Below are positions 58,587 through 63,435 of a stretch of 64,000 nt of DNA, in pieces. The DNA is from Polaromonas jejuensis NBRC 106434 (lineage in GTDB: Bacteria; Pseudomonadota; Gammaproteobacteria; Burkholderiales; Burkholderiaceae_C). Within the stretch, counting starts at the first letter, position 1. Every line of letters begins with the position of its first letter. Position numbers and translations under genes: made by a program. The DNA lies in the NCBI RefSeq assembly GCF_001598235.1, contig NZ_BCYO01000002.1:62001-126000 (forward strand), read 5' to 3'. The notes beneath the pieces are model-generated. The model did not search any database, was not told the origin of the DNA, and saw nothing but the letters and a program-made list of their open reading frames with translations.

Positions 58587-60623
58587 TTATCGATTGAGCC
58601 AGACGAAGTACGTCATCAAAACGAAGACGCCCAGAATCATCCCGAAGGCATAGTGATAGATATAGCCCGACTGCAAGCGGCGGATCACGCTGGAGACCCA
58701 GCCCACCAGCTTCCAGGAGCCGTTGACGAACGCACCGTCGATCAGCGCCTCATCGCCGCCCTTCCACAGAGCCGTCCCCAGCAGGCGTGTACCACGGGCA
58801 ATGACGTTTTCGTTGAACCAGTCGAAGTAGTACTTGTTCTCCAGCAGCGTGTGGATCGGCTGCACCTTGCGCTTGATGGCCGCAGGCAAGGCCGGGTTCA
58901 CCAGGTACATGTAATACGACAGCACCACACCCGACAAGGCCAGCCAGAACGGCGCTGCCGTCAGGCCGTGAATCGCCATCTGGAGCGGGCCGTGGAAGAC
59001 CTTGGCCATCTCTTCCATGGCGGGATGGTGCTCAAGACTGACGAAGATCACGTCCTTGAAGAAATCACCGTACAGCATGGGCTGAATCGTCATGAAGCCA
59101 ATCACCACGGAAGGGATCGCCAGCAGGATCAGCGGAACCGTCACCACCCACGGCGACTCGTGCGGCGCATGGTGCTCGTCATGGTGATGATGCGGATCGG
59201 GTTCTTCGGCCGGGTCGTGGTCTGCAGCGCTGTGGTTCTGGTCATAGCGCTCCTTGCCGTGGAAGACCAGGAAGTACATGCGGAATGAATAGAAAGCCGT
59301 GACGAAGACACCGGCCAGCACGGCGAAGTGCGCGAAGCCGGCGCCCGGCAGGTGGCTCTCGGCCACCGCCTCGATGATGCTGTCCTTGGAATAGAAGCCG
59401 GCGAACAGAGGCGTTCCGATCAGCGCCAGCGAGCCCAGCAGCGACGTGATCCAGGTGATGGGCATGTATTTACGCACGCCGCCCATCCAGCGGATGTCCT
59501 GGTTGTGGTGCATGCCGATGATGACCGAACCAGCGCCCAGGAACAGCAGCGCCTTGAAGAAGGCATGCGTCATCAGATGGAATACAGCCACCGAGTAAGC
59601 CGACGCCCCCAGGGCCACCGTCATGTAGCCCAGTTGCGACAAGGTGGAATAGGCCACCACGCGCTTGATGTCGTTCTGGATGATGCCGAGAAAACCCATG
59701 AACAGCGCCGTGATGGCGCCGATCACCATGATGAAGCTCAGTGCGGTATCGCTGAGTTCAAACAGGGGCGACATGCGGGCCACCATGAAAATGCCTGCCG
59801 TCACCATGGTGGCGGCGTGAATCAGCGCGGAAATCGGCGTGGGGCCTTCCATAGAATCGGGCAGCCACACATGCAGGGGGAACTGGGCGGACTTGCCCAT
59901 GGCACCGATAAACAGGCAAATGCAGATCACCGTGACCAGCATCCAGCCGGTGCCGGGGAAAGCCAGCTTGGCCAGTTCGTCAGCCTTGGCAAAGGCTTCG
60001 CCATAGTTGAGCGTGCCGGCATAAGCCGCGATCAGGCCAATGCCGAGTATGAAACCGAAGTCACCTACCCGGTTCACCAGGAAGGCCTTCATGTTGGCGA
60101 AAATGGCGGACGGCTTGTTGAACCAGAAACCGATCAGCAGATACGACACCAGGCCCACCGCCTCCCAGCCGAAAAACAGCTGCAGCATGTTGTTGCTCAT
60201 CACCAGCATCAGCATGGAGAAGGTGAACAGCGAGATGTAGGCGAAGAAGCGGTTATAGCCCTCGTCTTCCTCCATGTAGCCGATGGTGTAGATGTGCACC
60301 ATGAGCGACACAAAGCTCACCACGCACATCATCATGGCGGTCAGGCTGTCGACCAGGAAGCCGACTTCCATTTTCAGGCCGCCCACCGTCATCCAGGTGT
60401 AAATCGTTTCATTGAAGCGCGCACCATCGAGCGCAACGCTTTTGAGCGTCATGGCCGAAATGATGAAGGCCACCAGCACACCAAAAATTGTGAGGGTGTG
60501 CGACAGGCGGCGACCTATCCAGTTGCCGCCAAACGAGGTGCCGAGAATACCGGCAACCAGCGCCCCCACCAGGGGCGCCATCGGAACGGCCAGCAAGGCC
60601 GATGCAGAAAGGGTTTGACTCAT
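58587..60623 (-). CDS. nuoL: NADH-quinone oxidoreductase subunit L
   Basis: 678 residues, the distal antiporter-like subunit with the long lateral helix at the C-terminus. Marks: FFGWEAVGLVSYLLIGFW, SAQFPLHVWLPDSMEGPTPISALIHAATMVTAG, and NDIKRVVAYSTLSQLGYM. A His-rich loop (HHHHDEHH) near residue 475 is unusual and could bind metal. The ATG is 93 bp from the nuoK stop because of an inserted repeat, where relatives should have the two genes nearly touching. Confidence 0.97.
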   Translation of the reverse strand: MSQTLSASALLAVPMAPLVGALVAGILGTSFGGNWIGRRLSHTLTIFGVLVAFIISAMTLKSVALDGARFNETIYTWMTVGGLKMEVGFLVDSLTAMMMCVVSFVSLMVHIYTIGYMEEDEGYNRFFAYISLFTFSMLMLVMSNNMLQLFFGWEAVGLVSYLLIGFWFNKPSAIFANMKAFLVNRVGDFGFILGIGLIAAYAGTLNYGEAFAKADELAKLAFPGTGWMLVTVICICLFIGAMGKSAQFPLHVWLPDSMEGPTPISALIHAATMVTAGIFMVARMSPLFELSDTALSFIMVIGAITALFMGFLGIIQNDIKRVVAYSTLSQLGYMTVALGASAYSVAVFHLMTHAFFKALLFLGAGSVIIGMHHNQDIRWMGGVRKYMPITWITSLLGSLALIGTPLFAGFYSKDSIIEAVAESHLPGAGFAHFAVLAGVFVTAFYSFRMYFLVFHGKERYDQNHSAADHDPAEEPDPHHHHDEHHAPHESPWVVTVPLILLAIPSVVIGFMTIQPMLYGDFFKDVIFVSLEHHPAMEEMAKVFHGPLQMAIHGLTAAPFWLALSGVVLSYYMYLVNPALPAAIKRKVQPIHTLLENKYYFDWFNENVIARGTRLLGTALWKGGDEALIDGAFVNGSWKLVGWVSSVIRRLQSGYIYHYAFGMILGVFVLMTYFVWLNR

Positions 60624-60721
60624 TGTTTAACCGCCCGTAGGGCCGCCCCAAGGGCGGTTAGCGCCCCCTTGGGGGGCAGCGAATACATGAAGTGAAAAGC
60701 GTGGGGGCTCATTGTTTAACC
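60619..60721 (-). repeat. GC-rich repeat insertion between nuoK and nuoL with 14-bp direct repeats
   Basis: The junction GGTTAAACAATGAG (minus strand) occurs twice, at 60708-60721 with the nuoK stop and at 60619-60632 with the nuoL start. Between them is a repeat containing GGGGGGCAGCG and GAAGTGAAAAGCGTGGGGGC, also found between nuoH and nuoI. The second ATG in the right-hand copy opens a 30-codon frame (60712 to 60620) that ends in TGA overlapping the nuoL ATG. Confidence 0.8.
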
Positions 60722-61024
60722 CTGCAGCGTATTGAGTTCGTCGACGTTGATGCTGGCCTTGTTACGGAACAGCAGCACCAGGATGGCCAGCCCGATGGCG
60801 GACTCGGCAGCCGCAACGGTCAGGATGAAAAACACAAAGACCTGGCCCGCCATGTCGTTCAGGTAGTAGGAGAACGCCACAAAATTCATGTTGACGGCCA
60901 GCAGCATCAGCTCAATGGCCATCAGCAGCACGATCAGGTTCTTGCGGTTCAGAAAAATGCCGATGACCGACAGCGCAAACAGCATCGCGCCGAGGGAAAG
61001 AAAGTGTCCCAAAGTGAGCATCAT
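60716..61024 (-). CDS. nuoK: NADH-quinone oxidoreductase subunit K
   Basis: 102 residues, three membrane helices, with the two conserved Glu of the proton path ([15 protein letters not shown] and [11 protein letters not shown]). The start overlaps the nuoJ stop as ATGA. The stop lies in one copy of a 14-bp direct repeat created by an insertion ahead of nuoL. Confidence 0.97.
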
Positions 61025-61674
61025 GATTGTTTTTCCTCGGCGGCAGCCGGCACGGGCACCACAGGCGCAGCGACCACAGGCTTCATCTTGACCAGGCGAA
61101 GACGGTCAGCCGCCTTGACACGGACTTGTTCAGATGGATTCGTGTTTCTGGAATCCTTGCGCTGACGCAGCGTCATGGCAATGGCCGCAACCATGGCCAC
61201 CAGCAAGATGACAGCCGCAATTTCCAGCGGATAGAGATATTCCGAATACAGCAGCTTGCCCAACTCTTTGGTATTGGACACCTGAGCCGCGAGTTGACCG
61301 GCCGCCGAAGAGGCCAGCTTGGGCGGCTCGCGAAACCCGCCCATCAAGACATAGGACATTTCCAGCGCAATGATGGCGCCCACCGTGCCGGCCAGCGGAA
61401 AATGCTTCCAGAAGCCCTTGCGCACGCTGTCCAGGTTGATGTCGAGCATCATCACCACAAACAGAAAGAGCACCATCACCGCGCCCACATAGACAAGCAC
61501 CAGCGTGATGGCCAGAAATTCGGCTTTGAGCAATATCCAGACGGCGGCCGCCTGGAAAAATGCGAGCACAAGGTACAGCGCCGCATGCACCGGGTTGCGC
61601 GCCGTAATCACCCGGAATGCAGCAAAGAGCAGCACCGCGGCGAAGACATAGAAGAGACCTGTTTTAGCGTCCAT
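61021..61674 (-). CDS. nuoJ: NADH-quinone oxidoreductase subunit J
   Basis: 217 residues, five membrane helices, the conserved [53 protein letters not shown] block including the pi-bulge helix of complex I. The C-terminal 40 residues are a charged tail ([14 protein letters not shown]). Overlaps nuoK, 45 bp after nuoI. Confidence 0.96.
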
Positions 61675-61718
61675 ATTGTTGTGGATTCTTTCTTGAGCCA
61701 GCTACTTGGGCGTGGGAT

Positions 61719-62216
61719 TCAGCGGTATTTGGCATCGGCCGCCTTGTTGGCAGCAATTTCGGCTTCATAGCGGTCACCCACTGCGAGCAGCATCTCTTTG
61801 GTGAAATACAGGTCACCACGTTTTTCACCGTGGTACTCAAAAATGTGGGTCTCGACAACCGCGTCCACCGGGCAGGCCTCCTCGCAGAAGCCGCAAAAAA
61901 TGCATTTGGTCAGATCGATGTCGTAACGCGAGGTGCGGCGGCTGCCGTCGTCCCGCACGTCGGACTCAATGGTGATGGCCAATGCCGGACACACCGCTTC
62001 GCAGAGCTTGCAGGCAATGCAGCGCTCTTCGCCGTTTTCATAACGGCGCAGCGCGTGCAGGCCGCGAAAACGCGGGCTCAGCGGGGTTTTCTCTTCGGGG
62101 AACTGGACCGTGATCTTGCGGCTGAACATGTACTTGCCGGTCAGGGCCATGCCCTTGAACAGCTCGGTGAGCATGAAGCTCGAAACAAAATCCTTGACGG
62201 AGGCTACGGCACTCAT
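61719..62216 (-). CDS. nuoI: NADH-quinone oxidoreductase subunit I
   Basis: 165 residues, peripheral-arm subunit with two [4Fe-4S] clusters N6a and N6b: [12 protein letters not shown] and [38 protein letters not shown] is typical. The ATG overlaps the TGA of a 48-codon frame that begins at the nuoH stop and runs through a repeat. Confidence 0.97.
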
Positions 62217-62357
62217 GATGATTTCCTGCGCAACTGAGTCATAGAAAGGCTGCTATTCAAGCAGGGGCCGCGGAACCGGCTTAGCCGGGCCGCAGGCGCA
62301 GCGGCCCCCTCGGGGGGCAGCGCATTACACGAAGTGAAAAGCGTGGGGGCCATCGTC
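62213..62357 (-). repeat. GC-rich repeat insertion between nuoH and nuoI
   Basis: The plus strand contains GGCCCCCTCGGGGGGCAGCG and GAAGTGAAAAGCGTGGGGGC, matching the nuoK-nuoL copy. A 48-codon frame starts at an ATG overlapping the nuoH stop and ends in a TGA overlapping the nuoI ATG. The repeat is read in a different frame from the other copy, so the conserved unit is the DNA or RNA, not a peptide. Confidence 0.75.
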
Positions 62358-63435
62358 ATTTCCAGATGTTGTATGGGGTCTGCATCCAGGCCCCGACGAC
62401 CACCAGCCAGACCAGGGTCACAGGTATGAAGATCTTCCAGCCCAGACGCATGATCTGGTCGTAACGGAAGCGTGGGAAGGTGGCGCGCACCCACAGGAAC
62501 ATCGTGACCACCACAAAGGTTTTTGCCGCCAGCCAGATCCAGCCCGGGATCCAGTTGAAAAAGGCGCTGTCGATCGGAGGCAGCCAGCCACCCAGGAACA
62601 GGATGACGCACAGGGTCGACACCAGAATCATGTTGGCGTACTCGGCCAGGAAGAACATGGCAAAGGCCATGCCCGAGTACTCGACCATGTGGCCGGCAAC
62701 GATCTCGGACTCACCCTCGACCACGTCAAACGGATGGCGGTTGGTCTCGGCCAGGCCGGAGATGAAATACACCACAAAAATCGGCAGCAAGGGCAGCCAG
62801 TTCCATGACAGGAAATTCAGCCCTTGACTTGCAGCCATGCCTTTGCCCTGGCTCATGACGATGTCCGTCATGTTCAGGCTGCCTGCCACCATGAGCACCA
62901 CCACCAGGCAAAAGCCCATGGCAATTTCATAGCTCACCATTTGTGCCGAGGCGCGCATGGCGCCCAGAAACGCATACTTGGAGTTGGAGGCCCAGCCCGC
63001 AATGATCACGCCATAGACTTCCATCGAAGTAATGGCCATCAAAAACAGCAAGCCGGCATTGATGTTGGCCAGCGCCACATCAGGACCAAAAGGAATGACG
63101 GCCCAGGCCGCCAGCGCCGGCATGATGGTCATGATGGGACCCAGCACAAACAAGCCCTTGCTGGCCGCCGTGGGCATGATGATTTCCTTGGTCAGCAGCT
63201 TGAGCGCATCGGCAATCGGCTGCAGCAAACCCAAAGGCCCCACGCGATTGGGGCCGAGACGGATCTGCGTAAAACCAATCGCCTTGCGTTCCCACAAGGT
63301 GAGGTAGGCCACGCAACCCATGAGCGGCAGCAGAACACAGACGATCTTGATGAGCGCCCAGAGCACGGGCCAGACTGTCGCGGGCCAGATGCCGCCCAGC
63401 AGACCCTGGCCGAAGCCGTAAATTCCGTCAATCAT
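62356..63435 (-). CDS. nuoH: NADH-quinone oxidoreductase subunit H
   Basis: 359 residues, eight membrane helices, contacts the quinone chamber. Marks: [76 protein letters not shown] and [18 protein letters not shown]. The start overlaps the nuoG stop as ATGA. Confidence 0.97.

Follow-up and report, generated by a model that had tools for sequence, protein, structure and literature searches.

The nuo operon of the window, by which we mean the whole 64-kb stretch of DNA analyzed in this study, has a GC-rich repeat in the spacer that separates nuoK from nuoL. This arrangement raises the question of how such a repeat can lie between two genes of an operon while the ribosomes leaving the first gene still arrive at the second. 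The features of the junction are as follows.

60716 to 61024, minus strand: nuoK (called ORF, with alignment to NuoK of relatives)
60708 to 60721, minus strand: first copy of GGTTAAACAATGAG, made up of the native nuoK end and stop followed by the start of the micro-ORF
60620 to 60712, minus strand: bridging micro-ORF between nuoK and nuoL, 30 codons, MSPHAFHFMYSLPPKGALTALGAALRAVKQ
60628 to 60708, minus strand: repeat resembling the Beta-proteobacterial Repeat Element (BRE) in the nuoK/nuoL spacer (BLAST and motif matches, arm analysis of 88 copies)
60652 to 60660 and 60628 to 60636, minus strand: arms TAACCGCCC and GGGCGGTTA of the 3' hairpin of this repeat, around a 15-nt loop
60619 to 60632, minus strand: second copy of GGTTAAACAATGAG, made up of the hairpin-arm end of the element and the nuoL start
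58587 to 60623, minus strand: nuoL (called ORF)

Layout of the nuoK-nuoL junction

The initial annotation had described a 14-mer holding the nuoK stop and the nuoL start on both sides of a GC-rich repeat, and a 30-codon frame opening at the first 14-mer and ending on nuoL. Both descriptions are correct: the 14-mers are exact, and with up to one mismatch allowed the sequence has exactly two matches in the 64 kb, a number found in none of 100 shuffles. The 3' end of nuoK reads GGTTAA, the ATG of the micro-ORF lies 3 nt past the nuoK stop, and its TGA overlaps the nuoL ATG (60623) as ATGA. The repeat, whose edges were set by comparing copies, consists of a 5' part (GCCCCCACGCT), a palindrome (CTGCCCCCCAAGGGGGC), and the 3' hairpin. 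In addition, a Shine-Dalgarno-like GGGCGG of nuoL (match of -6.5 kcal/mol) sits in the 3' arm of this hairpin, and the 80 nt around the nuoL start have the most stable fold (-38.3 kcal/mol) of the seven nuo starts examined.

Repeat family and its likely identity

In its own 5.13-Mb genome, the repeat had at least 44 BLAST matches, itself included (40 of 93 candidates scored), and its core motif had 109 matches at up to two mismatches, compared with 4 for a reversed control pattern. Three other genomes of the genus contained at least 29, 42, and 50 matches (39, 40, and 40 candidates scored, respectively), and the closest named nuoK relatives were mostly Polaromonas among the matches listed. For copy-level analyses, 88 copies of the own genome were gathered. 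The usual copy opens with an A/T-rich 5' edge, of which the last bases are often ATG, followed by GCCCCCACGCT, the CTGCCCCCCGAGGGGGC palindrome, and a hairpin, and tandem pairs are also present. Complementary arms of 7-9 nt around a 15-nt loop were found in 23 of the 88 copies, including the nuoK-nuoL copy (60628-60660); the arm sequences vary from copy to copy yet remain complementary.

The nuoK-nuoL insert belongs to a short repeat that forms hairpins and is present in high copy number. This repeat is most likely the BRE, since its length, base composition, hosts, and tandem arrangement all fit the published description. According to the BRE section of Hot et al. 2011 (PMC3110155), the elements are 75-91 bp long in Bordetella, GC-rich, present in many copies and arranged in tandem units; they are mostly intergenic, with some entirely inside coding sequences, and among Comamonadaceae the copy number is highest in Polaromonas sp. 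JS666 (29 copies). The present repeat agrees with that section in size class, GC-richness, copy number, tandem units, Comamonadaceae hosts, and a placement largely between genes with some copies inside them, and it fits the class of 75-91 bp GC-rich, multi-copy chromosomal repeats of Comamonadaceae and Alcaligenaceae that also occur as tandem or partial units. The same section does not deal with reading frames, bridging, or stop/start positions and leaves the function open, and no description of BRE as a translational bridge was found in the titles and abstract openings of the papers listed.

The initial annotation had also spoken of a mobile repeat in an essential operon. A dispersed repeat does lie inside the nuo operon, and its mobility is presumed. 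A RAYT (Y1_Tnp) was considered as the mobilizer and rejected, as the genome has a single such gene and the repeat motif was not found in its 3.3-kb locus.

Origin of the flanking 14-mers and of the first ATG

According to the initial annotation, insertion of the repeat duplicated a 14-bp target containing the nuoK stop and nuoL start, at an ancestral junction of three bases, and so produced a spare ATG. This model is consistent with the exact 14-mer on both sides of the repeat and with one other copy (L164) that has a 10-bp match, TCGAAATGAA, on both sides. However, the GGTTA of the second 14-mer belongs to the element's own 3' hairpin arm, GGGCGGTTA, which pairs with TAACCGCCC, so that duplication of a 14-bp target does not explain the junction best. 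The GGTTAA of the first 14-mer is the native end of nuoK: within the genus set (loci L010-L044 and L046, in which at least three genomes are counted twice), 15 of the 20 junctions with a short spacer have it. The 36 nuoK-nuoL spacers of this set measure 4-8 nt (20 junctions) or more than 30 nt (16 junctions) and in no case 3 nt, which argues against an ancestral junction of three bases. Moreover, the 14-mers are unequal in relatives with the insert (GGTTAAGCAATGAG and GGTTAAATAATGAG in L012; likewise in L018 and L020). Among the 88 copies, flanking direct repeats differed little from those of permuted flank pairs: repeats of at least 8 nt occurred at 5 copies, against about 2.6 in the permuted pairs, the nuoK-nuoL locus having the longest. 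A target site duplication of fixed length, as in target-duplicating transposons or MITEs, was not found at most of these copies within flank windows of fixed size, which very short duplications would escape. As the initial annotation had expected, none of the relatives without the repeat has the 14-mer twice among the junctions read. Taken together, we regard the target-duplication model as highly doubtful.

An ATG within 5 nt of the 5' edge of the element was present in 19 of 34 sense copies at junctions, 11 of 26 copies inside genes, and 2 of 17 antisense copies, against a chance level of about 0.04. These results suggest that the element brings its start codon along. Because the ATG is also found in the gene-internal copies (though in few antisense ones), the first ATG of the nuoK-nuoL micro-ORF is probably the element's own.

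Bridging frames at nuo junctions of relatives

A second case was found in the same operon, with the following features.

62356 to 63435, minus strand: nuoH (called ORF)
62213 to 62359, minus strand: bridging micro-ORF between nuoH and nuoI, 48 codons, with an ATGA overlap both with the nuoH stop and with the nuoI start
62268 to 62350, minus strand: second BRE-like repeat, in the nuoH/nuoI spacer (3' boundary approximate)
61719 to 62216, minus strand: nuoI (called ORF)

Among the nuoH-nuoI junctions readable in 110 loci (L010-L119), 29 had spacers of 40-300 nt, and the frame opening at the upstream gene was scored as touch in 20, fused in 5, short in 1, and without ATG in 3. The repeat was assigned to junctions by eye from the spacers, including L018, which the pattern had missed. 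At all 20 repeat-bearing junctions the bridging ORF ends -3 to +13 nt from nuoI, with spacers ranging from 111 to 149 nt, three frames of the repeat in use, and unlike peptides. These are 17 distinct junctions, since L040, L042, and L046 duplicate L021, L032, and L012, and they form 6 clusters at 75% identity, all bridging; being orthologous, they are not fully independent owing to common ancestry. The repeat-free fused cases (L082, L095, L102, L114, and L118) are internal start choices and were left out as evidence.

These junctions also bear on whether selection acts on the amino acids of the micro-ORFs, which would then encode functional peptides. The motif MAPTL..ALPPEGA does recur, as such selection would have it, but its recurrence follows from the DNA repeat held in common, and the orthologous nuoH-nuoI junctions use three frames with unlike peptides. 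Selection on the peptide is thus unsupported, and we consider it extremely improbable.

At nuoK-nuoL, 26 long spacers comprised 14 touch, 2 near, 4 short, 1 over, and 5 without ATG. Eight of the nine repeat-bearing junctions were bridged, with the frame ending -4 to +4 nt from nuoL, including L018, L020, and L044, whose copies differ considerably in their interior; in the ninth (L041), which has two repeat copies, the frame stops 24 nt short. L094 was flagged by a loose pattern and excluded from the nine, as the repeat is absent from its spacer. No bridge was found in L094, L062, L114, L119, and some shorter spacers. Spacers unrelated to the repeat also bridge in L028, L039, L056, L072, and L091; the GC-rich inserts of the first three are dissimilar and likewise carry a frame up to the nuoL start.

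Position of copies and excess of stop/start contacts

In the own genome, 29 of the 34 sense copies at co-directional junctions begin between -1 and +8 nt relative to the stop of the upstream gene; of the five exceptions, three are the second member of a tandem pair. A further 17 of the 88 copies are antisense to a co-directional pair, and 26 lie inside one long called frame. Across the four genomes, 104 distinct co-directional junctions carry the repeat, 91 of them with spacers of 40-300 nt. These 91 were scored as touch (25), fused (12), near (8), over (1), short (9), or without ATG (36), using ORF-end windows that were chosen after examples had been looked at. In comparison, 37 repeat-free spacers of 45-300 nt included 1 touch, 1 fused, 2 near, 8 short, 1 over, and 24 without ATG. 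Gene starts were taken from a purpose-written gene caller and not from annotation; for nuoL this caller chose a start that lies 42 nt within the true gene, and the nuoK-nuoL junction itself was therefore scored as short in the pooled tests.

A GC-rich and stop-poor repeat might give open frames and overlaps as unselected by-products of its composition. In line with this explanation, the repeat has several open frames whichever way it is oriented, and many junctions are unbridged. However, a composition-keeping null of 1-2 nt indels, applied to the 55 testable junctions, predicted 8.4 touch, 9.0 fused, 3.9 near, 18.7 over, and 15.0 short, against the 25 touch and 1 over observed, and the observed touch count was reached in none of 100,000 draws. 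The bridging of all 20 repeat-bearing nuoH-nuoI junctions despite indels likewise speaks against composition. An earlier test with narrower windows gave 17 touch for sense copies, compared with 8.9 expected under a phase null (P 0.0005) and 9.7 under a shuffle null (0/20,000). For antisense copies it gave 5 touch, compared with 2.3 under the phase null (P 0.04) and, without significance, 3.5 under the shuffle null (P 0.19).

In a strict test, only stop/start overlaps of 1 or 4 nt were counted, with one junction per orthologous downstream gene. Such overlaps were present at 17 of 48 non-orthologous junctions of the four genomes (7.5 expected, P 5e-5) and at 12 of 26 in the own genome (4.7 expected, P 7e-5). 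The three other genomes alone showed no significant excess (5 of 22, 2.9 expected, P 0.12), so that the strict signal rests mainly on the own genome, a weakness that favors the composition explanation. The comparison of orthologues is evidence separate from this test. Overall, we judge it rather unlikely that composition alone accounts for the frames.

Further bridged junctions precede genes that are presumably mnmG-like, kdsC-like, or transporter genes, the labels being our own by similarity. Long spacers before mnmG bridge in 2 of 2 cases, and those before kdsC touch or fuse in 3 of 3. At lolC-lolD, the long spacers number 17, some of them lacking the repeat, and comprise 6 fused, 6 short, and 5 without ATG. 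The repeat frame runs on as an N-terminal extension in trpF-, lolD-, and tmk-like genes, and such extensions occur in several genomes (L124, trpF-like; L185, L212, and L250, lolD-like; L199 and L278, tmk-like). Some antisense copies bridge as well. In antisense copies L120, L140, L144, L156, L163, and L181, the edge of the element lies 2-4 nt upstream of the downstream start codon.

Copies in frame within genes

Repeat copies were also found in frame inside conserved proteins (plus strand in each case: L184, 3-1301; L161, 770-1744; L183, 2884-4101; L191, 362-1999; L135, 3-689). The hosts include MCC-alpha-like (L184) and PrmA-like proteins, together with others that we take to be acyl-CoA-dehydrogenase-like, CobQ-like, and LigA-like; the CobQ-like protein contains two copies in opposite orientation. 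Relative to 3u9s_A, residues 204-237 of the L184 protein are a clean in-frame insert, which falls between residues 287 and 289 of that structure.

Proposed mechanism

The repeat might instead act as an RNA or DNA element of the operon, such as a processing site, a terminator or attenuator, or a stability hairpin, with the ORF incidental. The strong hairpin of the repeat (-47 kcal/mol, z -2.17) would suit such a role, as would the finding, in the BRE section of PMC3110155, that a BRE is located where two small RNAs of Bordetella lie. Nevertheless, this explanation predicts neither the conservation of the frame nor its overlap with the next start, and the sole Rfam match at E up to 1 in 60500-62500, HCV_J750, was taken as chance, since its 24.5 bits are far under the gathering score of 90. 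We consider an RNA or DNA element with an incidental ORF quite unlikely.

The repeat can probably sit in operons because its bridging frame would deliver ribosomes from the upstream to the downstream gene. The initial annotation had proposed that coupling is preserved by the micro-ORF, and as architecture this proposal is supported, as both nuo junctions retain the arrangement although their sequences have diverged, and other junctions show it too. The repeat would bring, or would survive only where it gives, a stop-free frame with its start at the upstream stop and its stop at the downstream start. At nuoK-nuoL, ribosomes ending nuoK would re-initiate on the micro-ORF ATG 3 nt downstream and read about 30 codons through the GC-rich hairpin, whose stem would otherwise hold the Shine-Dalgarno-like sequence of nuoL. 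The ribosome on the micro-ORF would thereby open the hairpin, terminate at ATGA, and re-initiate on nuoL. What would count is the delivery of ribosomes, the opening of the hairpin, and the avoidance of polarity, the peptide being irrelevant. According to PMC10666635, about 20 nt between genes nearly abolishes termination-reinitiation in reporters, so that a bridge would restore the -4 spacing across about 90 nt; gene overlaps are also enriched there among subunits of heteromeric complexes. With its Shine-Dalgarno-like match, nuoL need not rely on coupling alone.

The gene-internal in-frame copies show that the repeat tolerates being read, which favors bridging. Against it stand the 36 of 91 spacers without an ATG near the upstream stop and the 9 in which the frame ends early, together with the mixed outcome at lolC-lolD and the L041 frame that falls short of nuoL.

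If bridging frames work in this way, being translated would be a testable reason for the presence of short repeats inside essential operons, and many unannotated micro-ORFs at operon junctions may be ribosome bridges rather than peptides. The 17 distinct nuoH-nuoI junctions, with their indels and frame changes, are natural bridge variants for gauging how far coupling needs the stop/start overlap. More tentatively, BRE could be a portable translational bridge, namely a selfish repeat that has evolved a start codon of its own, together with frames free of stops whichever way it lies, and that has done so independently of MIRU, a possibility to which we give somewhat less than even weight. If true, ribosome flow would stay unbroken when such a bridge enters the junctions of operons or the genes of essential complexes, and the evolution of short repeats in operons would follow a general rule of keeping ribosomes moving.

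Comparison with known repeats

The closest known case is that of the mycobacterial interspersed repetitive units (MIRUs), as described in the review PMC12548453. Their repeat contains a small ORF, which is coupled to the gene downstream of it at -4 nt and has its counterpart, as architecture, in both copies of the window. The host of the present repeat is a Polaromonas-like betaproteobacterium, judging from its nuoK relatives, and belongs to another phylum than the mycobacterial hosts. To our knowledge, MIRUs have no palindromes and always follow the orientation of the operon. In contrast, the present repeat forms hairpins, occurs in both orientations (17 of the 88 own copies being antisense), and is also found inside genes. 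It would work like a MIRU but is not filed as one, and going by their descriptions the two are apparently unrelated.

The bridge ends show -4 and -1 stop/start overlaps, which are also the most frequent spacings in PMC10666635, on termination-reinitiation; the overlaps there are native and lie between two genes, whereas those described here come through an inserted repeat. The enterobacterial RU-1, RU-2, and RU-3 are likewise small mobile repeats that carry ORFs and are found within genes, and junction bridging is not mentioned in the abstract of PMC2759123. Rickettsia palindromic elements (RPEs) are palindromic repeats, a high proportion of which lie in frame in protein genes (PMC10969869, PMC3733652); the passages on RPEs in these sources describe no bridging ORFs at operon junctions. 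Going by its placement, the present repeat shares this habit, with 26 of 88 copies in long frames and the insert of L184. The MIRU habit and the RPE habit of the in-frame palindromic insert are united in one betaproteobacterial repeat.
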